Shown piece after piece: positions 27,085 through 61,927 of a stretch of 64,000 nt of DNA (its first letter is position 1; each line of letters starts with the position of its first letter). The notes beneath the pieces were generated by a model. That model worked only from the letters and a program-made list of their open reading frames with translations, was not told where the DNA came from and searched no databases. Location of the stretch: the NCBI GenBank assembly GCA_029242545.1, contig JAQWTV010000110.1:1-64000 (forward strand). Reading direction: 5' to 3'. The DNA comes from Roseibacillus sp. (GTDB lineage Bacteria > Verrucomicrobiota > Verrucomicrobiia > Verrucomicrobiales > Akkermansiaceae). The translations under genes and the position numbers were made by a program.

Positions 27085-27234
27085 GGGTCACTTAATGTCC
27101 GGAAAGTAGATCCTCTGCAAGGACGATCGAGCCGCTCACTCAATTCCGGAGACCACCCGGGACCATTCCCCAGCATCCTAATTTCCTCGCCGGAGCGGAG
27201 AAAATCCGAGAGAGTGGCTGACGCTATTCTTTCC

Positions 27235-29598
27235 ATGAACTATCACGGAACCATCCCATCCCTGATGCTCTCTTTCTTCTTGGTGCTGCTTTCCGGCATC
27301 GGGGTTGAGGCCGCTCCCACCCGAGGCAATGTCAAGGCCCTCGGTATCCGCGTGACCTTCGCAAACTTCAAGAACGCCCCGGGCCTCTCCACCATCGCCA
27401 ACCGGCTGCAGGGTGCCAAGGTAAGTTACTCCCGTTACTCCTACGGGAAGCTCAACATCACATACGATACCGTGGAGGTCAGCCTTCCCCGCAACCGCAA
27501 CACCTATGATGCGGGGTCACTTGCTGACGCTGCGGAACTCCGGGCCCGCAACAAGGGATTCAACCCCGCCGGTTACGCCATCGTGGGATTCTTCCACGGC
27601 GGACACGCCTCCGGCAACAAGGCCATCGTCGGGGGCAAGCGCTTCTGGACCAATACCGGCGGAGCCACCATCCACGAGATGGGACACAATTTCAACTGGG
27701 GTCACCAGAGCCGCTGGGTGCCCAACGGCAGTAACCCGATCGGTGGTGGATCGGTCCAGACGCCCGACATGTGGCACTTCATGGCCAACAGCTCCACCGA
27801 CGCCGACCCCTACGACAAGTGGACCCGCGACTGGATCACGGCCCGCCACAACATCACCACCGAGGGTAGTTTCACCCGCCGCCTCTATACCTGCGACCAG
27901 AAGAATACCGACCCCACCAATGACAAGCGCGTCCTCCGGGTCACGAGGGACACCGGCAACAGCGCCGCCTACTGGATCGGATTCCGTTCCCGGTTGATGA
28001 ACAAGCAGAACGACGGGGCCACCGGGAAGAATGAACTCCTGCGCCAGGGTCTCGTCTTCTACTGGGACCGGGGGACCGTGGGAGGGCAGAATGTCGTCCT
28101 CATCGACATCCACCCGGGCCAGGGCGGCTGGGACAACCATTCCCTGCAACCCGGGGAAACCTACGCCGACACCGCAGGCAAGGTCTGCATCACCAACCTC
28201 GGCCGCGGCGGCGAGACCCCGAACGAATATATTGATGTCCGGATCAACAAGGGGGCCTTTCCCGACAACCGGCCCCCTGAGCCGACCTGGGATGCACCTG
28301 CCACCTGGGAATCCGGGGAACCCCTTACCATCACCATCACTCCCAATGATCCCGATGGCGATGAGGTGGCCTGCATGTGGAAGACCACGGGGCGAGCCAT
28401 CCCACACAACCAGAGCAGCCCGGTCCTGAACCAGACCTGGAACGTGCCCGGGAGCTACCAGGTGCGGGCCGTGGTCTCCGACATGAAGGGGAAGACCGCC
28501 ACCCTGAGCCGAACCATCACCGTCACCGGAGATTATCCGGTGACCTTTGCCAATGCCGGGTTTGGAACGTGGGCCGGCAATGAAGACAACACCGGGTGGA
28601 GCGCGGACGTGCTGTTCGACGGCGAGGTGGCCGCCACCGCCAACCTGTCGGCCGATGAACTGCAGGGGGATTTCGAGGCTTCTGCCACCCTGGTCCGCAA
28701 CGACACCGCTGAGAGCAAGTCCCTGGTCATGGTGGTGCTAAAGGACCCCGTGAACGGCGCCGGAAACGAACCCGTCTCGCAGGCCTCCCTCCAGCTCTCC
28801 GTCACCGACGTCCGGCCGGGATATGTTCTCGACGGCATCTCGATGACCTCCAATGGGGTCGTCTTCTCCCCGGAGGAACTGACCGACATCCAGTTCGATG
28901 GAGAAGGCACCACCGTGGTGGATGCCAGCAGGTCCACCGATATCCTCGTCGGCGGGGTCGCGGATACTCCCAGCCCACTCACCCCCGGGGATACCGTGAA
29001 CTTCATCGGGCCCGGTGCCTGGGACAATCCCAATGGATTCACCGGAAACGCCCACAGCCTGAAATGGAGTATTGATGCGGCTGGATCGACCTTTCTCGGA
29101 GGGAACTACATCACCGAGTCGACCCTCTCCCTCGCCAATGAACAGCTGGCCTTCGGCGTCGGCATGAGCCGGGAACCGGGAACCGGAACCTTCTCCTATT
29201 CCGACTGGGCCACGGCCATCTCGGGACTGGGCGGACCGGAAGCCGCCTTCGAGGCAGATGCCAATGGCGATGGCATCGCAAATGGCCTGGCCTTCCTTCT
29301 CGGCGCCCAGGACGCCAACACTGATGCCAGCGACCTTCTTCCTGACTGGAGCTCCACCCCGGGTCGAACCACCCTGTCCTTCCGCCGTTCCGACGATGCC
29401 TCCTCGTCCATCCGGGCGGTAGTGGAATACAGCCGCACCCTGCAGTCCTGGATCCCCGCGCTGGAAACCAACCGCGGGGTGATCATCACGGCGGATGATG
29501 ACTTCTACGAACCGGGTGTCGACCGGGTGAACGTCAGCATCAGTAACAGCCTGACCGACTCCGACACCCTGTTCCTGCGCCTGCGGATCCAGCCCTGA
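27235..29598 (+). CDS. Secreted metzincin-like metalloprotease with PKD-like and C-terminal beta domains
   Basis: After the signal peptide, a roughly 200-residue metalloprotease domain carries HEMGHNFNWGH near residue 146, which fits HExxHxxxxxH of metzincins but has Asn where Gly is usual. A possible Met-turn follows (DMWHFMANSS). Further on are a PKD-like domain (about 345-435, NDPDGDEVACMW), a segment of unassigned beta structure, a calcium-loop-like DANGDGIANGLAFLLG, and a C-terminal beta domain ending in LFLRLRIQP that recurs in other secreted proteins of this window. The ORF track begins at GTG 27214; ATG 27235 gives a more compact signal peptide, but no Shine-Dalgarno sequence decides between them. 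The substrate is probably an extracellular protein. Confidence 0.82.
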   Translation: MNYHGTIPSLMLSFFLVLLSGIGVEAAPTRGNVKALGIRVTFANFKNAPGLSTIANRLQGAKVSYSRYSYGKLNITYDTVEVSLPRNRNTYDAGSLADAAELRARNKGFNPAGYAIVGFFHGGHASGNKAIVGGKRFWTNTGGATIHEMGHNFNWGHQSRWVPNGSNPIGGGSVQTPDMWHFMANSSTDADPYDKWTRDWITARHNITTEGSFTRRLYTCDQKNTDPTNDKRVLRVTRDTGNSAAYWIGFRSRLMNKQNDGATGKNELLRQGLVFYWDRGTVGGQNVVLIDIHPGQGGWDNHSLQPGETYADTAGKVCITNLGRGGETPNEYIDVRINKGAFPDNRPPEPTWDAPATWESGEPLTITITPNDPDGDEVACMWKTTGRAIPHNQSSPVLNQTWNVPGSYQVRAVVSDMKGKTATLSRTITVTGDYPVTFANAGFGTWAGNEDNTGWSADVLFDGEVAATANLSADELQGDFEASATLVRNDTAESKSLVMVVLKDPVNGAGNEPVSQASLQLSVTDVRPGYVLDGISMTSNGVVFSPEELTDIQFDGEGTTVVDASRSTDILVGGVADTPSPLTPGDTVNFIGPGAWDNPNGFTGNAHSLKWSIDAAGSTFLGGNYITESTLSLANEQLAFGVGMSREPGTGTFSYSDWATAISGLGGPEAAFEADANGDGIANGLAFLLGAQDANTDASDLLPDWSSTPGRTTLSFRRSDDASSSIRAVVEYSRTLQSWIPALETNRGVIITADDDFYEPGVDRVNVSISNSLTDSDTLFLRLRIQP

Positions 29599-45505: not shown

Positions 45506-48500
45506 CTACTCCGCTACGACGCCCACGTTGTCGATCGAGAGACCGCTGTAGGGATCCAGGCTCTGGTCACTACTGAAGTTCCATTCGATGAAGATCTCTT
45601 CCCCAATTGCCTGCAAAGGCACAGGGATCTCCGTCACCACCCAGTCGATATCGAACACGGTCATATCAAGAGGCACCTCAACCCCCAGGACGACCTCATC
45701 GTCGGCACGCAGGAAGCGCACCAGCGCAGCATCAGAGAATCCATCAGCGTCACGATATACCTCGAAGGTCAGCCGAGCGGAAGGCAGGCCTGACAAGTCG
45801 ATCGCAGGAGAGCGCAGCGTGATGTCAGAATTGGGACCAAAATCCCCAAGATTCGTTGACCACGCATTGGCGGAGTTTCCTGCCCCGGAAATCGGGCCCG
45901 TGGTGCCTGACGGAGAACCCAGCTCCCAGATGGTATTGCGTTCAGGATCATTCTCGAACGTCGTCCATCCTCCTTGGCCCGCCTCAAAATCATCGAAAAA
46001 GGTTGGAGGAATTGGACCGGCAACAAGCTTGTAGAGCCGGGTAGTATCCGCAGGCCTTGAGATTGAGACCGCGTTTACCGGAGGAGTCGCTGAAATCCCC
46101 TCAAGACCGGGGACAAGTTCCCACGTTGAAGGGCTTTGATTACCCACTGGGTCATCGCTACTCACAATCGAATACTCCTGACCGGCGAAACTATTCCAGG
46201 TGAAATCAAGATTATCTCCACCGTCAGGAGAGCTCACCTCAAAGAGATAACGGTCGGTCATCCTCGTGCCGATAGCATATACCGGCGGACTCCCATTCTC
46301 GATGTCACCAAGCGCCACAATCCCCGGGATACCAGGGCCGCTGATTGCGACATCGGTCCACTCACCGCCACCCTGCTCGCCAAAGACATTATCAAAGGGA
46401 AAGAGACCTGGAATCGAGATAGCGAGTAACGCGGAAACTTCACCGCAGCAGCTCGGGTCTTCTACCACAAACGTTCCGTCCGCGGTATCCATGACGAAGT
46501 AGTTGGTATCATCAGACTGCAGATGGATGGTGTAGTCACCGGGAGCATAACCCCTCATATCAAGATACCCGTTGTAACGGACCGTAAAGTTATCTCCTCC
46601 ATTATCGACAAACGGTTCATTGCGGGTGGAAAAGTTTCCTCCTCCCCCGTGACTGGCATAGGGAACGATAGTGGTTACCGAAGAGTTGGGCGCCGGATCA
46701 CCGGAAACGTGAACATCGTAATTGTTCCGACCCTGTCCGTTGAGAATCACGCCACCATTATACTTGTTCTCCTGATAATCGAGGCCCGGAGTCTCGAGGT
46801 CAGGACCATACACCGTGCCGTCCGGCTGCGGATTGATCGGCACAAAGGAGGGCTGAATAATTGGCTCAACCGGTACGGAGTTCTCATCCAAGGGATTACT
46901 CCGGAAAGCTATCTCCTGACCATCTGCAAGACCATCCCCATCAGTATCCCTTTCAAGCGGATCGGTTCCAGTGTCCCCGCCACCGATAAAGGTGCCTGTA
47001 TTGGTTTCCACTCCGTCGCTCAGGCCGTCGCCATCAGTGTCAGCATTGGCTGGGTCCGTTCCGGCAGTCACTTCCGCATTATCGGCGAGGCCGTCGTTGT
47101 CCGTATCCTCAGCGGTAGGATTCGTTCCCGCGGTATATTCCGCCAGATCCGTGAGGCCATCGTTATCAAAATCTCCATCACCTGAAAGCTGGCTCAGGTT
47201 GTCGATATCAGGCCAGAGAAGCTCCCATCCGTCAATGAGGCCATCCTCATCGCTATCAGTAGAGTCCAGACCGATCGGATACACAGGCGGGCTCCCATTT
47301 TCAACGTCACCAAGAGCCGCGATACCGTTGATACCTGGGCCACTGATTCCGACGTCAAACCAATCACCGCCACCCTGCTCGCCGAATACATTGTCAAACG
47401 GAAAGAGCCCCGCAGAGATGATCGTGAAAGCTGTGGTCTGATTCTGAGGGCAGCAATTATGCTGTGCGACAACCTGTCCATCCCCTGTGTCCATGATGAA
47501 ATAGTTGGTATCATCGGCGCCCAGGTGGATGTTGTAGGTCCCCGGGGCAAAGGATGACATATCGAGGTATCCATTGATCCGGACGGTGAAATTCTCACCC
47601 CCACCATCTAACCATACGGCATTCCGGCTAGAGATCTGGCCACCTCCATTCCCATAACTGGCCCAGGGCACGATATCAGTCAGGGAGCGCAACGGGCTTG
47701 GATTCCCGGAAACATGAGCGTCATAATTGCCCTCTGCCTGATTATTTAAGACCACTCCACTGGCATAGTGGTTTTCCTGATAGTTGAGTCCGGCCTGACT
47801 CAGGTCAGGTCCGTAGATGATACCAGCCGCAATCTCATTAATCGGAACAAAGGAAGGCTGGACCACCTCAAAAGAGGGCTTACTGCTGGAGTCATTCGGA
47901 TCTGTATTCTCTGACACTTCCAGCCCGTCAATCACTCCATCATTGTCGGTATCGGCATCAAGCGGGTCGGTTCCTGTATCGCCGGCATCCACAAAAATAC
48001 CGGTTCCGGTCTCGGCCCCGTCAGGCAGTCCATCGCTGTCGCTGTCGTCGTCGAGGGGGTTCGTGCCGGCAGAGACTTCCACCCCGTCGGTCAGCCCATC
48101 GTTATCGGAGTCCTCATTAGTAGGGTCAGTCTGGGCCGCATATTCCTCGAGGTCGGGAAATCCGTCATTATCAAAATCCCCATCTGCGGTGAGCTGCGTA
48201 AGCTCATTAATAGCAGCCCAGGAAACCTCCCATGCGTCCGGAAGACCATCTCCATCGTCGTCAGCGGCAGGCAGACTGATCACGTAGACCGGAGGGCTAC
48301 CGTTTTCGGTGTCTCCGAGAGCTACGATTCCGGGAATGCCCGGTCCACTGATAGCCACGTCGGTCCACTCACCGCCGCCCTGCTCGCCAAACACATTGTC
48401 GAACGGGAAGAGGCCAGGAATCGAGATGGTGAAAGTCTGTATGCGCTCGGCGCAGCAGCTCGGATCATCCGCAATCACGGTACCATCCACGGTGTCCATC

Positions 48501-50926
48501 ACGAAGTAGTTCGTGTCATCAGACTGAATGTGAATGATGTAGTCACCGGCTTCGTAGTCCCTCATGTCGAGGTAACCGTTGTAACGCACGGTGAAGTTAT
48601 CACCACCACCAGCAACAAACGGGCTGTTGCGAGTGGAGAAGTTTCCGCCGCCACCGTGACTTGTCCATGGCTGGACCGCAGTCACCGAGGAATTCGTTGC
48701 CGGGCTGCCAGAGACGTGCACGTTGTAGTTGTTCAGGCTCTGACCGTTGGCGATCACGCCGGCGTTGTACTTGTTCTCCTGGTAATCAACACCGGGAGTA
48801 GCGAAGTCAGGGCCGTAGATCCCGGAGGCTTGTAAGTTGATTGGCACGAAGGAGGGCTGCACAACCGGGTCAACCGGAAGGGAAGCCGCGTCAAGCGGAT
48901 CGCTCCCGAAGTCCAGCTCCTGACCGTCTACCAGTCCGTCACCATCGGTGTCGGCGAGAGTGGGGTCAGTCCCGGCTTCGGTAATTTCCACGCCATCGTT
49001 GAGGCCATCGCCGTCAGTGTCTGCATTAGCGGGGTCCGTTCCAGCGATGGCTTCTGCGCCGTCAAGAATCCCGTCAGCATCGGTGTCGTCATTCGTCGGA
49101 TCGGTTCCAGCGGTGTATTCCGCCAGATCGGTAGATCCATCGTTGTCGAAGTCTCCGTCGCCAGAGAGCTGGGTGAGATCGCCGATCCCATCCCAGAGGG
49201 TCTCCCATGCGTCGATAAGGCCGTCCTCATCGGAGTCGTCAACATTGGTTTCAATCGGGTAAACTGTTGGGCTACCATTCGCGGTGTCACCAAGGGCTAC
49301 AATGCCGTTGATGCCGGGACCACTGATGCCGACATCATACCAGTCTCCGCCGCCCTGCTCGCCAAACACGTTGTCGAATGGAAACATCCCGGGGGTGGAA
49401 ATAGTGAAGGCCGTGACCTGGTTCTGCGGGCAGCAGTTGTGCTGCGCAAGAACCTGTCCGTCCGCGGTGTCCATGATGAAGTAGTTGGTATCATCAGCGC
49501 CGAGGTGGATGTTGTATTGGCCCGTCTCGAAGTTGGACATATCGAGATATCCGTTAATTCTTACGGTGAAATTTTCACCGCCTCCATCTAGGAAAGGAGT
49601 GTTGCGCTGGGAAATGGTATTACCCCCAGCCCCATGACTGGCCCATGGAACAATCGCATCGAAGGAACGGAGCGGAGTCGGATTACCCGATACGTGGGCA
49701 TCGTAGTTTCCCTGAGCCTGATTGTTGAAGACCACCCCTGCCGTGTAATGGTTCTCCTGGTAGTTCAGGCCCGTCTGGGTCAGATCCGGCCCATAGCCGC
49801 CGGGAGTAAATTCGTTGATTGGAACGAAGGATGGTTGCACGACCATCGACTCCGGCCTGCTGTCAGGATCATGCGGGTCGGTGTTTTGTAGGATCTCGAC
49901 ACCGTCAGAGACATTGTCCCCATCGGTATCAGTATTGAGAGGGTCCGTACCGGTGTCGCTAACGCTGACGAAAGTTCCCGTGTCGGTTTCCACGCCATCG
50001 AGGAGACCGTCGCCGTCGGTGTCGGGATTAAGCGGGTCGGTCCCGGCTGCCTTCTCCGCACCGTCATTGGCCCCATCATCGTCTCCATCGGCTACCGTGG
50101 GATCCGTGCCGTCGATATACTCTTCGGCGTCATTCACACCATCTTCATCAAAGTCTCCCGATCCGAGCTGGGTCAGGTCTCCGGGAAAAAACTGCTCCTC
50201 GTAGCCGTCGGGGATACTGTCGCCATCCGTATCCACGTCTGGATCAAAGCTGTCGAGATAGACTCCCCAGCTCTGGTCGTTGGCGTCGGCGTCAAATTCC
50301 GCAGGCGCGCCACTGCTGATACCAAAGGCCCCGACGTAGCCAATACCACCGAAGTCCGCAGTGTTGGTGGAGAAATCGTTGTAGTAGCCAAAACCGATAT
50401 CCGCCGCCGATTGCGCGCCGCCACCGTCCTCCACGAGCCATATATCAACATTGAACCAGCCACCCCCACCCTCGGCGGAGAAGTCGAAATTCCCAAAGGT
50501 CCGAGTATTCCAGCTCACATCCGTATGCTCGAAGGGAGCTCCCGTGCTGGCTAGATTTCCCGATCCGGCAATCGGCGTGGCGACCACCTTGACGCGGTCA
50601 TCAAAGTTCTCCGTGAACGAAAATACGCCATCTTCGTCGTAAAACTGAAAAATAAACGCCAGGTCGTAGTTATCACCAAGCAGGTCGATTTCCGTACCAG
50701 GTTCCCGGTCCACGTCGAGGGCCGAAATCAAACTTGAGGCAGGATCGTCCAGTTGTCCGAAAGGGGCTTCCCGGTCAATATTGGTGGGCAAGGCTCCCGT
50801 AAAGTCTGCTCCGGGCAAGTTATCGGTACGACGGAAAAGCAGCCTCTCAGGATTATGCTGCGCCATGACATACGGTGACAGGATGATACCGCAAAGAAGC
50901 AAAACAAAGGATCGAGAAATTTTCAT
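45506..50926 (-). CDS. Giant secreted thrombospondin type 3 repeat protein with four PA14-like modules
   Basis: The 1806-aa product has a signal peptide (SFVLLLCGIILSPYVMA) and an N-terminal beta domain of about 200 residues. Four copies of a roughly 198-residue module start near residues 362, 688, 1021 and 1356, separated by blocks of thrombospondin type 3 Ca-binding repeats (DTDGDGLxDG). Each module contains GYLDM, ADDTNYF or SDDTNYF, MDT.DG, a Cys-Cys pair and FPFDNVFGEQGGG. The arrangement resembles PA14 (GYL...DDxxxxMD), so glycan or cell binding is plausible. The C-terminus has a beta domain (YSIVSSDDP ... TRLYKLVAGP) and a MAM/jelly-roll-like domain ending at LSIDNVGVVAE. No transmembrane anchor or PEP-CTERM motif is seen. 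Function is probably adhesion or glycan binding at the surface. Confidence 0.87.
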   Translation of the reverse strand: MKISRSFVLLLCGIILSPYVMAQHNPERLLFRRTDNLPGADFTGALPTNIDREAPFGQLDDPASSLISALDVDREPGTEIDLLGDNYDLAFIFQFYDEDGVFSFTENFDDRVKVVATPIAGSGNLASTGAPFEHTDVSWNTRTFGNFDFSAEGGGGWFNVDIWLVEDGGGAQSAADIGFGYYNDFSTNTADFGGIGYVGAFGISSGAPAEFDADANDQSWGVYLDSFDPDVDTDGDSIPDGYEEQFFPGDLTQLGSGDFDEDGVNDAEEYIDGTDPTVADGDDDGANDGAEKAAGTDPLNPDTDGDGLLDGVETDTGTFVSVSDTGTDPLNTDTDGDNVSDGVEILQNTDPHDPDSRPESMVVQPSFVPINEFTPGGYGPDLTQTGLNYQENHYTAGVVFNNQAQGNYDAHVSGNPTPLRSFDAIVPWASHGAGGNTISQRNTPFLDGGGENFTVRINGYLDMSNFETGQYNIHLGADDTNYFIMDTADGQVLAQHNCCPQNQVTAFTISTPGMFPFDNVFGEQGGGDWYDVGISGPGINGIVALGDTANGSPTVYPIETNVDDSDEDGLIDAWETLWDGIGDLTQLSGDGDFDNDGSTDLAEYTAGTDPTNDDTDADGILDGAEAIAGTDPANADTDGDGLNDGVEITEAGTDPTLADTDGDGLVDGQELDFGSDPLDAASLPVDPVVQPSFVPINLQASGIYGPDFATPGVDYQENKYNAGVIANGQSLNNYNVHVSGSPATNSSVTAVQPWTSHGGGGNFSTRNSPFVAGGGDNFTVRYNGYLDMRDYEAGDYIIHIQSDDTNYFVMDTVDGTVIADDPSCCAERIQTFTISIPGLFPFDNVFGEQGGGEWTDVAISGPGIPGIVALGDTENGSPPVYVISLPAADDDGDGLPDAWEVSWAAINELTQLTADGDFDNDGFPDLEEYAAQTDPTNEDSDNDGLTDGVEVSAGTNPLDDDSDSDGLPDGAETGTGIFVDAGDTGTDPLDADTDNDGVIDGLEVSENTDPNDSSSKPSFEVVQPSFVPINEIAAGIIYGPDLSQAGLNYQENHYASGVVLNNQAEGNYDAHVSGNPSPLRSLTDIVPWASYGNGGGQISSRNAVWLDGGGENFTVRINGYLDMSSFAPGTYNIHLGADDTNYFIMDTGDGQVVAQHNCCPQNQTTAFTIISAGLFPFDNVFGEQGGGDWFDVGISGPGINGIAALGDVENGSPPVYPIGLDSTDSDEDGLIDGWELLWPDIDNLSQLSGDGDFDNDGLTDLAEYTAGTNPTAEDTDNDGLADNAEVTAGTDPANADTDGDGLSDGVETNTGTFIGGGDTGTDPLERDTDGDGLADGQEIAFRSNPLDENSVPVEPIIQPSFVPINPQPDGTVYGPDLETPGLDYQENKYNGGVILNGQGRNNYDVHVSGDPAPNSSVTTIVPYASHGGGGNFSTRNEPFVDNGGDNFTVRYNGYLDMRGYAPGDYTIHLQSDDTNYFVMDTADGTFVVEDPSCCGEVSALLAISIPGLFPFDNVFGEQGGGEWTDVAISGPGIPGIVALGDIENGSPPVYAIGTRMTDRYLFEVSSPDGGDNLDFTWNSFAGQEYSIVSSDDPVGNQSPSTWELVPGLEGISATPPVNAVSISRPADTTRLYKLVAGPIPPTFFDDFEAGQGGWTTFENDPERNTIWELGSPSGTTGPISGAGNSANAWSTNLGDFGPNSDITLRSPAIDLSGLPSARLTFEVYRDADGFSDAALVRFLRADDEVVLGVEVPLDMTVFDIDWVVTEIPVPLQAIGEEIFIEWNFSSDQSLDPYSGLSIDNVGVVAE
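46268..46861 (-). repeat. PA14-like module 4 (type B) of the giant repeat protein
   Basis: This copy starts IIQPSFVPINPQPDG and contains YQENKYNGGVI, HLQSDDTNYFVMDTADG, PSCCGE and EWTDVAISGPGIPGI. It pairs with module 2. The four starts are spaced 978, 999 and 1005 bases apart. Confidence 0.9.
47270..47866 (-). repeat. PA14-like module 3 (type A) of the giant repeat protein
   Basis: This copy starts VVQPSFVPINEIAAG and contains YQENHYASGVV, HLGADDTNYFIMDTGDG, HNCCPQNQTTAFTI and DWFDVGISGPGINGI. It pairs with module 1. Confidence 0.9.
48275..48865 (-). repeat. PA14-like module 2 (type B) of the giant repeat protein
   Basis: This copy starts VVQPSFVPINLQASG and contains YQENKYNAGVI, HIQSDDTNYFVMDTVDG, PSCCAERIQ and EWTDVAISGPGIPGI, all shared with module 4 rather than modules 1 and 3. 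Confidence 0.9.
49247..49843 (-). repeat. PA14-like module 1 (type A) of the giant repeat protein
   Basis: This copy starts VVQPSFVPINEFTPGG and contains YQENHYTAGVV, HLGADDTNYFIMDTADG, HNCCPQNQ and DWYDVGISGPGINGI. It is most like module 3, not its neighbour module 2. Confidence 0.9.
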
Positions 50927-53568: not shown

Positions 53569-54771
53569 TCAGTCCGCCTTCCCGTCCTTGTTCTCGTCCC
53601 GGATTCCTGAGTAGGGATTAGCAAGAACTGCCTGCCACGCGATTTTGCGGAACACCTTGTCGAGCTGGTCTCCCGGGAACCCCCCTGCCTCCACTTTCCC
53701 TTCAATCAGCTCAGGGGATCGCCGGTAAAGGGAAGCATAAAACACATAACCCTCCAGCCATTCAAATCCCGGCCCGAGGTGCCCCAGCTTATCCCGCCAA
53801 AGAGACTTCGCTTTACCTCCCAGCGCACGGTGGAGACCTTCCACTCCCGGCAACTCTCCCCGCTGGAAATACTGAGATGCCAGCACCATCGCCTCGCACG
53901 TCGGCATGATGAATATCCTTCCGGGATACTTCTTATTGAGCGAAGCGATCAGTTCACCATAAATCTCTCCCTGCAACTCACCAAGCTGCTTGATCGTTGC
54001 AGGAACGAACCCTTTCTTTTTGCCTCCCTCAATCTTGTCCAAGTGCTCAATCTGAGGCCAGCCATCGGAGAGAAAAAATTTCATGCCTGGATTATACTTG
54101 AGGCAAAACTCGATCCAGCAGGAGTAGTATTCCGGACGGTCGTTAAAATAAGGCCCCCACATCATGGCCTCCCATTCCGCATTGGCAATAGAGGCCAGAA
54201 GCTTCGGCTTCGCCTTTCCCTTGAACTGAAAGATGCCATTCTCCTGCTCCCACTTGTAACGAGTGCTTCCCGTCATCCCTCCTCCGGTATGCAGGTGCAA
54301 CGGCTGCTTAAATCCAGCCGTCTGACAGATTTTCGGGAGAGTCTTATAGCCGGGGCCCATGAAACTATGACCTGTTCCCACGACCCGCAGCCCTCCATCT
54401 TTTGGTTTTGCGAAGGAGGTAATTGGATCCCTGTCGGGGCCAAGAACTTTTGCATAGGTCTCCCGGATGCGTTCCGGCGACTGGTAACACACCGCATGTT
54501 CGGGAAATTTCCCCTTCTCCCATCCCGGGTGAATCTTGAAAGAGCGTGCCGCGCCCCGTTGTGCGCCACCTCCACCGCTTGCCTTGTCTCGAAAAGCGAG
54601 GGCCTCCGCTACCGTCAGTATGCCATCCTTGTTTGCATCAGCCTGAGGGAAACGCTTTAGCAACTGAGCAAGCTGATCCTTGGCGGGATTGGCACAGGCA
54701 ACACCACCTGGGGCAATCAGGATGACCAGCAAGGTCCAAGCCAGCCCACGGCATCTGATATTGAGCTTCAT
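53569..54771 (-). CDS. Exported EF-hand protein with a putative SGNH-like hydrolase domain
   Basis: From ATG 54771 the 400-aa product has a signal peptide (WTLLVILIAPGGVACA), an EF-hand loop DANKDGILTVAE near residues 45-56, and a second loop-like DENKDGKAD at the very C-terminus. The body is not a family I can name with certainty, but GTGHSFMGPG (Ser near 136) resembles SGNH block I and DKLGHLGPGFEWLEGYVFYASLY resembles block V (DxxHL). A hydrolase of the SGNH type is therefore a reasonable guess. The ORF-track start at 54879 adds 36 residues before the signal peptide and is unlikely. It is convergent with the propeller gene. Confidence 0.65.
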   Translation of the reverse strand: MKLNIRCRGLAWTLLVILIAPGGVACANPAKDQLAQLLKRFPQADANKDGILTVAEALAFRDKASGGGGAQRGAARSFKIHPGWEKGKFPEHAVCYQSPERIRETYAKVLGPDRDPITSFAKPKDGGLRVVGTGHSFMGPGYKTLPKICQTAGFKQPLHLHTGGGMTGSTRYKWEQENGIFQFKGKAKPKLLASIANAEWEAMMWGPYFNDRPEYYSCWIEFCLKYNPGMKFFLSDGWPQIEHLDKIEGGKKKGFVPATIKQLGELQGEIYGELIASLNKKYPGRIFIMPTCEAMVLASQYFQRGELPGVEGLHRALGGKAKSLWRDKLGHLGPGFEWLEGYVFYASLYRRSPELIEGKVEAGGFPGDQLDKVFRKIAWQAVLANPYSGIRDENKDGKAD

Positions 54772-54941
54772 GTGGGTGCCATGCTCCACCTCTCGCACCA
54801 GAGGTCCATTCAAATTCACAGAAAGAGAGGAGAGTTTCCAACTCGAACAAATTAGAAAACCCGATAAATTGCCCCGCACGGAGGAAGGAATATATTTCCG
54901 GATGTTCAGCCGGACTTCTACAAGGCAATACTAAGCAACAC

Positions 54942-56944: not shown

Positions 56945-59900
56945 ATGTCCCTTCCCCCCTCGCTACCCCGGGCAGTCCTCACTCTTTTTCTGCTGCTTCC
57001 TGCCGCACTCATGGCCGCGCCCCCCCGGATCACTGAGTTCATGGCCAGTAACAATGGGATCATTGCCGACGAGGATGGAGACTACCCGGACTGGATTGAA
57101 ATCCACAACCCCGACCCGGCCTCCATCGACCTCGCCGGACACTCGCTGACCGATGACCCCTTGGAGCCGAGAAAGTGGATCTTCCCAAGCGGATCCACCG
57201 TCAGGGGAGGTGGATATATTGTGGTATTCGCCTCCGGCAAGAATCGCACTACTTCGGGAGCCGAACTACATACAAACTTCCAGCTGAATGCAGGTGGCGA
57301 TTACCTTTCCCTTCTTGCTCCTGATGGAGCCCGTATACTCACCGAGTTCGGCTCCGAGGTCATTCCTTTTCCGCGCCAACGTCCTGACATTTCTTACGGC
57401 ACCGGGGAAGCCTCGCTCAAAATCAATCTCCTCGGCGATGCTCCTACCGCCCGCTATCTCGTTCCTGCAGCCGAAGATGATCTCAATCCGCAGTGGGCGA
57501 CCCGTCTTTTTGACGACACCAGCTGGACCAGCGGAAGCCTCGCACTCGGATTCGACCTCGATGGGAACGACGGAAGCGCCATTGCTCCACGAAACCATTG
57601 GCCTCTCGATGATGGCTTTGGCAGCGTCGCCCGCGACATCAGCGGAGATTTTCCGGGATCCCTGATCGGAATACAGGGGGAATCACCATTGTGGAACCTC
57701 GACGCTCCGCCCATCGCAGGCGGACCGGAGTCCTCCCTGAGTTTTGATGGCACCGCAACCTTTCTCCAGACCACCCTGCCCGGCATCGGAGGATCCTCAT
57801 CACGCTCCATCGTATTCTGGATCCGATCAGACGATACTTCGAACCATGGAATCGTCTCGTGGGGAAATCGGGATTCTCCCTCGGGAAAGTTTCATCTCCG
57901 GCTCAACAGTAATCCAGATAGCGGAACCCTGGGGGCGATCCGATGCGACCTTGGCGGAGGAAGCGCCGTCGGTTCCACCAGTCTCGCCGACAACCAATGG
58001 CATCACGTCGCCGTCGTCCTGGAAGAAGATGCCACTCCTACGCTCACGGATCTTCGATTCTACATTGACGGCATAGAAGACCCCGCCACCGCTCCCGCAA
58101 CCGTTCCTATCGATACTGATATTTCCAGCATTGACTCTCTGCAAGTTGCAATCGGACGACGCGTCGAGAGGACTCCTCTCTACTTCTCCGGCAATCTTGC
58201 AGATGTCGCCCTTTATGACGTTGCCCTGACTTCTGACGCCATCACGAGACTGGCGGCAGGCTCCTTCCGCCCCTCCAGTTCTGTTGGATTCGGCAGCTAC
58301 ATAATAACTAATACCGAGAGTGAGATGCTGAACCAAGGCGCCTCACTGTTTGTTCGCGCCCGCTTCGACCTACCGACCGCTCACTCACTGGAGAGCCTGC
58401 GCCTCTTGCTACGCTACGATGATGGTATTCGCGCCTTCATCAACGGCGAGCAAGTCGCAAGCGCGAACATTCCGGTGGAAAGCTCATGGAACACAACGGC
58501 ACAAACAGAGCGGACCAACGTAGAGGCCGTGAGCACGGTTGAATTCAACGCCTCACAAGTCCTGCCTTCCCTGCGTTCGACTGACAACATTCTTGCCCTG
58601 CACGGAGCAAACCTCAACGCCGGCGATCGCGACTTCCTCATCGACGCCCAGCTTGAGGGTATCGACCTCGGACAACGCTCTGCCGGCTACTTCCTGACCC
58701 CTACGCCGGGAGCCGAAAACACCGGGGAGCCTGATACCGGGGCTTTCGTAGCTGATACAAAATTCACACCTAATCGTGGATTCTATGAGGAACCCTTCGA
58801 TCTTACGATCAGCAGCAAAACCGAGGGCGCTTCCATCTATTACACACTGGACGGGAGCGAGCCGTCCTCGAGCAACGGCATACTCTACGACGGCCCTCTT
58901 ACAATCGATGGCACCGCCACCGTCAGAGCAGTGGCGCTGAAACTCGGACTCGTTTCCACAAATATCGACACCCATACCTACATCTTTCCATCCAGCGTGC
59001 TCACTCAAAGCACCACACCTCTGGGCTTTCCCACGGCCTGGGGAGAGCGTGCAACCGATTACGAAATGGACCCGGATCTGATTGGCACTGCCTACTCCCG
59101 GGAGGAGATCATCGATTCGCTGCGTTCTCTTCCCTCCATCTCAGTCGTCATGAACGTCGACGACCTCTTTGATGGGGAGAGCGGATTTTACGCCAATTCG
59201 AACGAAAGCGGTGACGAATGGGAAAAGCGTTGTTCTTATGAGTTCTTCGATTTTCCGAATGGCGCCCAGACTCAATTGAACGGAGGAATCCGGGCGGTGG
59301 GCCGTGCGAGTCGTTCCGCCAATCGCGGCAAACACAATCTCCGGGCAGTCTTCCGCTCAGAGTATGGCCCAACCAAGCTGCGGTTCCCCCTTTTTGCTGA
59401 TTCCGAGGTCACCGAGTTTAACTCCCTCATCCTTCGAGGAGGCAATGGAGACTCATGGCTGAATCCGGGTGTGGTGGAGCGGGCGCAGTATATTCGTGAT
59501 CAGTGGCACCGGGACGCGCAGCGCGCTACCGGGCAGCCCTTCCAACACCAGATGTATGCTCATCTCTACCTCAACGGGCTCTACTGGGGCATGTATCATA
59601 TTTTCGAACGTTTTGAGGACGATATGCTCGCAGAGCACTTCGGAGGCGAGGAAGAAGACTGGGACGCGATCAAGGATGCTGGGAGGGCGAGCGTTCTTGA
59701 AGTAGTCGATGGTGACCTGAGCGCCTGGAATCGCACTTTAGCGGTAACACGGCGGGATATGAGCAACCCCAGAAACTATGCAAACGCCCTGATCTTTATC
59801 GATCCCGACACCTGGATTGATTATTTTATCACCAATTTCTATTCCGGAAATACCGACTGGGATCAGTCCAACTGGAGAGCAGCCCGGCGCAGGGATAGGG

Positions 59901-61927
59901 ACGCCAAATGGATGCTCTTCGCATGGGACTCCGAGCGGACGGACCTGAACGCGACTCAGGGCACAAACTCCAGCACCAACGATGCCACGGTTGAGAACAC
60001 GCCGAACTTTCCATCGAGCGTGCATCAGCGATTGACCGCCAACGAAGAGTATCGCCTGCGCTTCGCTGACCGGGTCCGGCTGCACTGTTTTAATGGCGGA
60101 ACCTTCACCCCGGAGGGAGCAGCTCAACTGTGGGACACCCGAGCTGATGAGATTTATGAACCGCTCATCGTGGAGGCGATACGGTGGGGGGACCGCCATC
60201 GTTTCCCTCCCGCCCGCCGGGAAACCTTCTGGCGGCAGATGTATAATACCATGCAGAGCGATTTCTTCCCCCAGCGCACCGAAACCCTGATCTCTCAACT
60301 CAGGGCTCGCGGACTCTATCCCTCGGTGGAAGCCCCGGACTTCACTCCTCACGGAGGCCTCTTCACCGATCAATCGGAGGTCACGATCAGTGCGAGCACC
60401 GGAGGCACAATCTATTACACCACTGATGGAAGTGATCCCCGACGACCGACCACTACAGGATCCGAATCCCTCCTTCTTCCCGAGGGATCTCCTACCCAAG
60501 CATTCATCCCTACAGATGACTCTCTCGCAATGACGTGGACGGAACCAGAATTTGATGATACCGGCTGGATAAGCGGGGCAAGCGGGGTCGGATTCGAGCT
60601 GGACACAGGCTTTGAAGGGCTTTTCGGGGTCGACCTGAGTGAAATGCATTCTCTGAACTCCTCGGCTTACGCCCGGTGGGAGTTCGATATTCTGGACCGA
60701 GCCCAGCTAGCTGCAATCACCTCCCTGACATTGCGCGCACGCTATGATGACGGGTTCATCGCCTACCTGAACGGAGGAGAGGCGGCCTCCGCAAATCGAC
60801 CCGCCAATCCCGCTTGGAATTCCCACGCCTCTGCTGCCCACCCGGACGGATCAGCTGTCGAATTCAGCACCTTCAATCTCAGCAATTCAATCAATCGCCT
60901 GCGACTTGGCACCAACGTGCTCGCCGTTCACTGCATGAACCAGCAATCGGACAGCAATGATCTTCTCTTCATTCCCGAACTGGTAGCAGCCACCGGAACC
61001 ATTCCTGCTGGCGTCTCTCCCTCCGCCCAAGTTTACAATGGTCTCCCCCTTGCACTCGAGGAAAGCACCCGTCTGCAGGCCCGGGCACTGAGGAACGGAA
61101 CATGGTCCGCACTGACCAGCACTATCTTTACGGTAGGAACCCCGGCCACCTCTGAGCACATCGCGATCAGCGAAGTGCATTATCACCCTCTCGGGGATTC
61201 TCCCACCGAGTTCCTCGAGCTGATCAATATCTCCGATGAAGTGGCGGACCTCACTGGTCTCTCCTTCACCAATGGCATTGCATTCACCTTCCCCGAGGCC
61301 ACCCTCCTCTCCCCAGGCGAACGCACGCTCGTCGTCGAGAATATCACCGCTTTCGAAATTGCCTATGGTCTCGGCTTGCCCATTGCCGGATCCTTTGCAA
61401 ATGGAACGCGCCTCTCGAACGGAGGCGAGCGTATTACCTTGCTGGCCCGCGACGGCTCCACCATCTCCGACTTCCGCTACCGCGATTCCCACCCCTGGCC
61501 ACAAGCCCCGGACCAGACTGGGCAAAGCCTCATTCTTGTCGTCCCCGGGGAATCCTCCCCTTCCAACCCGCTCAGTTGGCGCGCCAGCATTCTTCCAGGA
61601 GGAAACCCAAGTTCCTCCGACTCCATCTCTTTCCTCGCAGGAGAGTCGCAATCCCTTCTTGATTATGCACTTACAGATAATACGGAGCTCCAGTTCTCAG
61701 TAGTGGAGGACCTCTCTGTTCTTTCCTTCCTTACCCGTAGCGCAGCGGATGACGCCACCATCTGGGTAGAATTTTCCCCTGATCTTCGCACTTGGACATA
61801 TGCCCCGACCGAGTCTCTGGTTTCCCGGGACGCTAGACCCGATGGAACAACCCTCTACCGCTTCACTATGCCTGCTCCCCAGCGAGACTTGGTGAGATTT
61901 GCCCGCCTGCGTATCGAACTGCGCTGA
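56945..61927 (+). CDS. Giant secreted CotH / LamG / lamin-tail multidomain protein
   Basis: The 1660-aa product has a signal peptide, then a lamin-tail domain (about 28-125, ITEFMASNNG). A galactose-binding-like domain is split by a LamG/concanavalin-like domain (about 205-440), resumes with RYDDGIRAFING near 490, and ends near 571. A chitobiase C-terminal-like domain (608-683, YYTLDGSEP) follows. A CotH domain (about 725-1117) includes the RGGNGDSWLN and MLFAWDSERTDLN motifs. A second YYTTDGSDP domain is interrupted by another galactose-binding-like domain (1172-1355). A second lamin-tail domain (from about 1403) and a terminal beta domain ending FARLRIELR complete it. CotH is an atypical protein kinase fold, so a secreted kinase-like or structural surface role is possible. 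It stands alone on the plus strand. Confidence 0.9.
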   Translation: MSLPPSLPRAVLTLFLLLPAALMAAPPRITEFMASNNGIIADEDGDYPDWIEIHNPDPASIDLAGHSLTDDPLEPRKWIFPSGSTVRGGGYIVVFASGKNRTTSGAELHTNFQLNAGGDYLSLLAPDGARILTEFGSEVIPFPRQRPDISYGTGEASLKINLLGDAPTARYLVPAAEDDLNPQWATRLFDDTSWTSGSLALGFDLDGNDGSAIAPRNHWPLDDGFGSVARDISGDFPGSLIGIQGESPLWNLDAPPIAGGPESSLSFDGTATFLQTTLPGIGGSSSRSIVFWIRSDDTSNHGIVSWGNRDSPSGKFHLRLNSNPDSGTLGAIRCDLGGGSAVGSTSLADNQWHHVAVVLEEDATPTLTDLRFYIDGIEDPATAPATVPIDTDISSIDSLQVAIGRRVERTPLYFSGNLADVALYDVALTSDAITRLAAGSFRPSSSVGFGSYIITNTESEMLNQGASLFVRARFDLPTAHSLESLRLLLRYDDGIRAFINGEQVASANIPVESSWNTTAQTERTNVEAVSTVEFNASQVLPSLRSTDNILALHGANLNAGDRDFLIDAQLEGIDLGQRSAGYFLTPTPGAENTGEPDTGAFVADTKFTPNRGFYEEPFDLTISSKTEGASIYYTLDGSEPSSSNGILYDGPLTIDGTATVRAVALKLGLVSTNIDTHTYIFPSSVLTQSTTPLGFPTAWGERATDYEMDPDLIGTAYSREEIIDSLRSLPSISVVMNVDDLFDGESGFYANSNESGDEWEKRCSYEFFDFPNGAQTQLNGGIRAVGRASRSANRGKHNLRAVFRSEYGPTKLRFPLFADSEVTEFNSLILRGGNGDSWLNPGVVERAQYIRDQWHRDAQRATGQPFQHQMYAHLYLNGLYWGMYHIFERFEDDMLAEHFGGEEEDWDAIKDAGRASVLEVVDGDLSAWNRTLAVTRRDMSNPRNYANALIFIDPDTWIDYFITNFYSGNTDWDQSNWRAARRRDRDAKWMLFAWDSERTDLNATQGTNSSTNDATVENTPNFPSSVHQRLTANEEYRLRFADRVRLHCFNGGTFTPEGAAQLWDTRADEIYEPLIVEAIRWGDRHRFPPARRETFWRQMYNTMQSDFFPQRTETLISQLRARGLYPSVEAPDFTPHGGLFTDQSEVTISASTGGTIYYTTDGSDPRRPTTTGSESLLLPEGSPTQAFIPTDDSLAMTWTEPEFDDTGWISGASGVGFELDTGFEGLFGVDLSEMHSLNSSAYARWEFDILDRAQLAAITSLTLRARYDDGFIAYLNGGEAASANRPANPAWNSHASAAHPDGSAVEFSTFNLSNSINRLRLGTNVLAVHCMNQQSDSNDLLFIPELVAATGTIPAGVSPSAQVYNGLPLALEESTRLQARALRNGTWSALTSTIFTVGTPATSEHIAISEVHYHPLGDSPTEFLELINISDEVADLTGLSFTNGIAFTFPEATLLSPGERTLVVENITAFEIAYGLGLPIAGSFANGTRLSNGGERITLLARDGSTISDFRYRDSHPWPQAPDQTGQSLILVVPGESSPSNPLSWRASILPGGNPSSSDSISFLAGESQSLLDYALTDNTELQFSVVEDLSVLSFLTRSAADDATIWVEFSPDLRTWTYAPTESLVSRDARPDGTTLYRFTMPAPQRDLVRFARLRIELR

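Follow-up and report, generated by a model that had tools for sequence, protein, structure and literature searches.

Does a single bacterial protein carry whole domains within the loops of other domains, and what might a kinase fold be doing among them? The gene at 56945-61927 on the + strand raises these questions. It lies in the window, our term for the whole 64,000-nucleotide stretch analysed here, and encodes 1660 amino acids in one open frame. An initial annotation had proposed that a LamG domain interrupts a first galactose-binding-like domain (GBD1), that a second one (GBD2) interrupts a chitobiase-C-like domain, and that CotH, an atypical kinase fold, lies between them, and it considered nesting on this scale unusual.

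The protein reads, from the N-terminus, as a signal peptide, a first lamin tail domain (LTD1), GBD1 split by LamG, an uninterrupted chitobiase-C/Fn3_assoc domain (CHB1), CotH, a second such domain (CHB2) split by GBD2, a second lamin tail domain (LTD2) and a C-terminal module, all on the + strand. Judged by eye, residues 1-25 (MSLPPSLPRAVLTLFLLLPAALMAA; 56945-57019, with its end at 57019) have the typical sequence of a Sec-type signal peptide, and the protein is probably exported. LTD1 covers residues 27-135 (57023-57349; Pfam PF00932, best stretch 29-131). LTD2 covers residues 1403-1556 (61151-61612), as placed by the second Pfam LTD stretch and a family profile. Searched with Pfam, the full protein gave two LTD matches, two CHB_HEX_C_1/Fn3_assoc matches, Laminin_G_3 at 269-433 and CotH at 847-1046; neither GBD1 nor GBD2 was named, and nor was the C-terminal module. 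Family profiles and modelled folds support the identity of the two putative galactose-binding-like domains. An NCBIfam match to DUF499_antiphage, placed on CHB1, is spurious (16 bits against a cut-off of 1200).

The C-terminal module, residues 1575-1660 (61667-61924), ends in FARLRIELR and was delimited by alignment and a genome search that returned 26 matches. Its pattern (E.S.DL..W, then F.RLR at the very end) recurs at 29323-29592 and at about 24 further sites in the genome. Many large CotH proteins share it, as do some proteins of other kinds (for example the PKD protein at 27214-29598), and it may serve in sorting or in attachment to the surface. Elsewhere in the window, a further large protein of 1806 aa, probably located at the surface, is encoded at 45506-50926 on the - strand; it contains bacterial TSP3 repeats together with a PA14-like stretch. 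A 436-aa ORF at 53569-54879 (- strand) draws no Pfam or NCBIfam match; L075 and L076 each hold a syntenic counterpart of about 70% identity.

To describe the two hosts, we used profiles made only from relatives without the insert: 19 uninterrupted GBD1 domains for the GBD profile and 33 uninterrupted CHB2 domains for the CHB2 profile. On GBD1 the GBD profile matches in two abutting pieces, positions 1-58 on residues 149-206 (57389-57562) and positions 60-187 on residues 448-573 (58286-58663; i-E 2.1e-32), with 241 residues (207-447) between them. The LamG/concanavalin-like domain sits in this interval, at residues 213-440 (57581-58264; Pfam PF13385, E 1.7e-17). The LamG insertion proposed in the initial annotation thus holds, and the boundaries it gave for the GBD1 halves, 155-205 and 445-571, deviate by no more than a few residues. 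The same profile covers GBD2 in a single piece, residues 1172-1350 (60458-60994; i-E 1.7e-54). CHB2 is again matched by its profile in two abutting pieces, positions 1-43 on residues 1126-1169 (60320-60451; i-E 2.6e-15), which end in YYTTDGSDPRR, and positions 45-85 on residues 1356-1397 (61010-61135; i-E 1.5e-10), which end in VYNGLPLALEESTRLQARALRNGTWSAL. The 186 residues between them (1170-1355) hold GBD2, as had also been proposed. In both hosts the pieces abut with nothing duplicated or absent, as a true insertion predicts.

Empty versions of both sites exist among the paralogs. L067 lies on the same contig (gene start roughly 8 kb downstream, CotH part about 12-14 kb downstream) and aligns with our protein in blocks, residues 574-1168 to its residues 511-1125 and residues 1356-1660 to its residues 1131-1449. 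Only five residues of its own separate these blocks; GBD2 is absent and CHB2 is continuous. For the other site, the own-genome paralog L071 has an uninterrupted GBD1 (residues ~165-345) that aligns at 42% to GBD2 of the 1660-aa protein and spans both parts of its GBD1, without LamG. L080, L089 and others likewise have a GBD1 without an insert.

Structure prediction places the domains in the same way. AlphaFold models of residues 27-690 (m4e5de6c941c8) and 687-1560 (m387d6a49b6f9) order the strands so that the domains are nested, not sequential. In the second model (38-row alignment, pLDDT 85.5, pTM 0.69), CHB2 strands 446-448, 458-463 and 469-473 (model numbering) are followed by GBD2 at 484-667 and then by CHB2 strands 683-685, 689-697 and 705-711. 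CHB1 (residues 605-682, 58757-58990; Pfam PF13290 at 609-674) provides an uninterrupted comparison. In the first model its strands 592-598, 604-608, 626-628, 632-639 and 649-654 (model numbering) follow the same order as those of CHB2, with a short loop after the second strand, where GBD2 sits in CHB2. The first model as a whole has pLDDT 78 and pTM 0.52. Its GBD1 parts, 142-178 (strands 142-146, 169-172 and 175-178) and 441-548, are confident (~90), and GBD1 strands correspond one for one to those of GBD2, with the LamG region between them at a pLDDT of only ~50-75.

The modest confidence of the LamG model, together with the silence of Pfam on both GBDs, would suit a protein in which the domains simply follow one another and the apparent splits come from partial domains that were duplicated or from unreliable domain assignments. 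Against this stand the profile pieces that abut at 43|45 and 58|60, the relatives that lack exactly the insert, and the modelled strand order, which equals that of the uninterrupted sister domains. Loop lengths are also tightly clustered: across 108 proteins, the CHB2 loop measures 5-22 aa (33 proteins), 189-222 aa (73) or 364 and 388 aa (2). We consider a sequential layout very improbable and reject it, as the split, abutting profiles contradict it. A gene that decayed recently, a chimera or an assembly that wrongly fused several genes has a negligible chance and is rejected too, since the sequence does come from a 175-contig draft genome but the frame is open throughout, 12 same-genus genomes hold orthologs with the same arrangement (65-93% identical; L037 among them is incomplete, with the LamG end missing), which is therefore no assembly accident, and the closest named ortholog hosts among the matches listed, Roseibacillus sp. 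SP127 (72%) and Akkermansiaceae bacterium UBA7890 (71%), largely conserve the neighbours as well. We regard the nested architecture of the 1660-aa protein as practically certain.

The nesting is real, but it is not singular, and in this respect the initial description of it as unusual has to be qualified. Both insertion sites are filled, empty or otherwise filled in the ~110 relatives analysed, which come from Verrucomicrobiota, Planctomycetota and a few MAGs with other labels; nesting is normal within this CotH family. A genome scan confirmed at least 498 relatives in the stretches examined, and the 80 that were retained are labelled mostly Verrucomicrobiota and Planctomycetota, with a few MAGs labelled otherwise. 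The source genome has 24 CotH loci. Across genomes G000 and G001-G038, most of the same genus carry 18-43 CotH genes, while many other genera within the family and order have 0-2; one genome of the same genus, G012, has only 3.

What fills the sites varies. The gap between LTD1 and CHB1 falls into classes of ~40-59 (no GBD), ~223-239 (GBD) and ~389-644 (GBD plus insert). The insert in GBD1 is LamG in our protein and in L077, L079, L081, L084 and L101, PA14 in L068, L042, L099, L107 and L120, and F5/8C in L083, L094, L122 and L136; in L133 the site holds a DUF1349-like match that falls below cut-off. The culturable Luteolibacter pohnpeiensis (L099) has paralogs with PA14 in GBD1 and with a GBD in CHB2. 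Two proteins reach a third level, with PA14 inside GBD2 inside CHB2 (L133 aa 1099-1560 and L116 aa 1165-1605). There the PA14 lies near the N-terminus of GBD2, in a GBD loop other than the GBD1 insertion site. A quick CotH-domain tree, which has open forks and mixes paralogs, requires a minimum of 20 state changes for CHB2 and 27 for GBD1. In a tree of the GBDs themselves the GBD2s cluster, and a single GBD2 origin is not rejected (p-AU 0.346), so a single early insertion followed by many losses explains the pattern as well as repeated insertion does.

Is the CotH domain a kinase fold, and does it retain the means for catalysis? It spans residues 730-1120 (59132-60304) and matches PF08757 (3.3e-12; 47.0 bits against a gathering cut-off of 23.8). 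With the model of residues 687-1560 as query, Foldseek ranks the CotH structures 5jd9/5jda first and second (probability 1.00, E 6.5e-11, TM(target) 0.71-0.72), in agreement with the atypical kinase fold assigned initially. A phmmer search of the CotH region alone found no significant match in the PDB. To reach one, a profile that combined the 1660-aa protein with 15 paralogs was needed, and its sole matching sequence was Bacillus cereus CotH (5jd9/5jda; E 1.2e-26).

The expected kinase residues are present. The invariant lysine K796 (59330-59332) occurs in 111 of 111 relatives and E888 (59606-59608) in 107. By alignment to 5jd9, D971 (59855-59857; D in 104 of 111) corresponds to CotH D228 and PKA D166, N976 (59870-59872; N in 104) to PKA N171, and the metal-binding D995 (59927-59929; D in 110) to CotH D251 and PKA D184 (residue functions as given in PMC7821199 and PMC12189002). 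In 5jd9 the motif reads D(0)GFVHN(+5)...PWD(+23), and D971, N976 (+5) and D995 (+24) parallel it, with equal spacing from D to N. Bacillus CotH keeps the equivalents of PKA D166, N171 and D184 (PMC12189002), and its D228Q and D251A mutants are inactive (PMC7821199). At the second acidic position of WDxD our protein has E997, where 5jd9 has Asp (WDYD); Glu is the rule here (102 of 111, with Asp in the other nine). This is a conservative change, and the second Asp of WDxD is not known to be an established defining residue.

The seven exceptions at D971/N976 make up one clade of relatives, supported on the tree, that lacks the catalytic Asp and Asn: L071 (own genome, C45), L117, L119, L129 (two), L130 and L135. 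Its motif is SG[DN]SESE[VF]R...KDADG, and the lysine and DFG-like Asp are kept. It is a probable conserved pseudokinase branch. Loss of the D/N pair there means that catalysis is not required throughout the family.

What, then, might the protein do? We give an even chance to an exported CotH kinase-fold enzyme that carries exchangeable glycan-binding-type modules in the loops of its scaffold domains and acts on co-localised secreted proteins. GBD1 and CHB2 would be the host domains, each accommodating a whole carbohydrate-binding-type domain in a surface loop while its own fold stays undisturbed. After Sec export, the scaffold of LTD, GBD and CHB domains and the inserted lectin-like modules would hold CotH against a glycan-rich target, which may be the envelope of the cell itself or else polysaccharide from algae or particles. 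There CotH would transfer phosphate or another nucleotide-derived group to secreted proteins. The modelled folds suggest that LamG, GBD1 or GBD2 may bind glycans. The weakest link is the phosphorylation of secreted partners, since it is uncertain how ATP would reach the space outside the cytoplasm; we know of no ATP source there, which counts against an enzyme. Also unfavourable are E997 in place of the Asp of 5jd9 and the loss of the D/N pair in one related clade. In favour of an enzyme are the conservation of D971, N976 and D995 and the essential role of the counterpart Asp residues in Bacillus (PMC7821199, PMC12189002). The conserved genomic neighbours examined, a gamma-glutamyltransferase, a 3-keto-disaccharide hydrolase-like protein (the next gene) and a PQQ propeller, gave no substrate clue.

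Because neither an extracytoplasmic ATP source nor a substrate is known, the strongest competing reading is a non-catalytic protein of the cell surface that binds glycans or mediates adhesion, in which CotH is kept for its surface as an adhesin or scaffold and nesting is a way of packing lectins. The signal peptide (seen by eye) and the many lectin-like domains fit such a protein, as do the scarcity of extracellular ATP and the clade without the catalytic D/N pair. Fungal (Mucorales) CotH proteins are adhesins. Mucorales CotH proteins also have a part in host-cell invasion (e.g. PMC7267888), a further point in its favour. However, K796, D971, N976 and D995 are found in 94-100% of 111 diverse relatives, which would be unexpected without catalysis or at least nucleotide or metal binding. 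We treat a non-catalytic adhesin or scaffold as a serious but tentative alternative. It is improbable, in our judgement, that the CotH acceptor is a polysaccharide or other small molecule instead of a protein, with the lectin inserts binding the substrate. Glycan-binding-type modules are abundant around the catalytic domain and the next gene is 3-keto-disaccharide hydrolase-like, but that neighbour may be unrelated and characterised CotH phosphorylates proteins (PMC7821199).

The architecture is solid, and the biology lags behind it. If the enzyme that we propose is real, then a large exported CotH architecture runs through Verrucomicrobiota and Planctomycetota, with two loops that repeatedly hold a carbohydrate-binding-type domain, stand empty or swap one such domain for another. 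Its filled and empty sites would form a natural series for studying protein evolution by domain insertion, and defined enzymes that keep the catalytic residues would allow extracytoplasmic protein phosphorylation in bacteria to be put to the test. A bolder proposal, which we consider doubtful, is that the secreted CotH proteins of these two phyla form an expanded recognition system. Lectin-type domains (LamG, PA14, F5/8C, GBD and others) would be swapped, lost or stacked to three levels in two socket loops, and a bacterium with 20-40 such paralogs would aim extracellular phosphorylation at many glycans. In the open literature, with most subscription papers outside the search, we found nothing on nested domains in CotH proteins (CotH/LTD/LamG) or on CotH expansions in Verrucomicrobiota or Planctomycetota.

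The characterised relative is the Bacillus CotH spore-coat kinase (5jd9/5jda; PF08757), which shares the kinase-like fold and in which D228, the Asn and D251 match D971, N976 and D995. Its 359-aa chain is essentially CotH alone and works in spore coat assembly, whereas our protein is probably exported, adds LTD, GBD, LamG and CHB domains, has Glu for the second Asp of WDxD and comes without a known CotB/CotG-like substrate. The accessory domains have relatives of their own. Foldseek matches the model of residues 687-1560 to the sugar-binding (jelly-roll) domain of GH2 beta-galactosidases and beta-glucuronidases, a match that we tentatively assign to GBD2; the 1660-aa protein has no GH2 catalytic domain. 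For the model of residues 27-690, the best matches are LamG/concanavalin-like folds (5hon among them, at E 1.3e-9), namely the lectin domain of trypanosomal sialidase/trans-sialidase and domain 4 of AbnA, which probably reflect the inserted LamG. Those proteins are glycoside hydrolases, and none is a CotH protein.

Two parts of the architecture are already known from other systems. CotH with LTD and Fn3 domains occurs in Clostridium thermocellum cellulosomes (PMC6083626), where Cthe_0239 (LTD-LTD-Fn3-CotH) and CseP/Cthe_0044 likewise join extracellular CotH to lamin tail and Fn3-type domains; these proteins are cellulosomal, and nested LamG or GBD insertions are not listed for them in PMC6083626. 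PA14 insertions are known from the GH3 beta-glucosidases KmBglI, RmBgl3B and DesR, in which a carbohydrate-binding-type domain likewise occupies a host loop, and are thought to have arisen twice (PMC6987092). In GH3 the host is part of the catalytic domain, whereas in the CotH family the hosts are accessory beta-domains and the nesting extends to as many as three levels.
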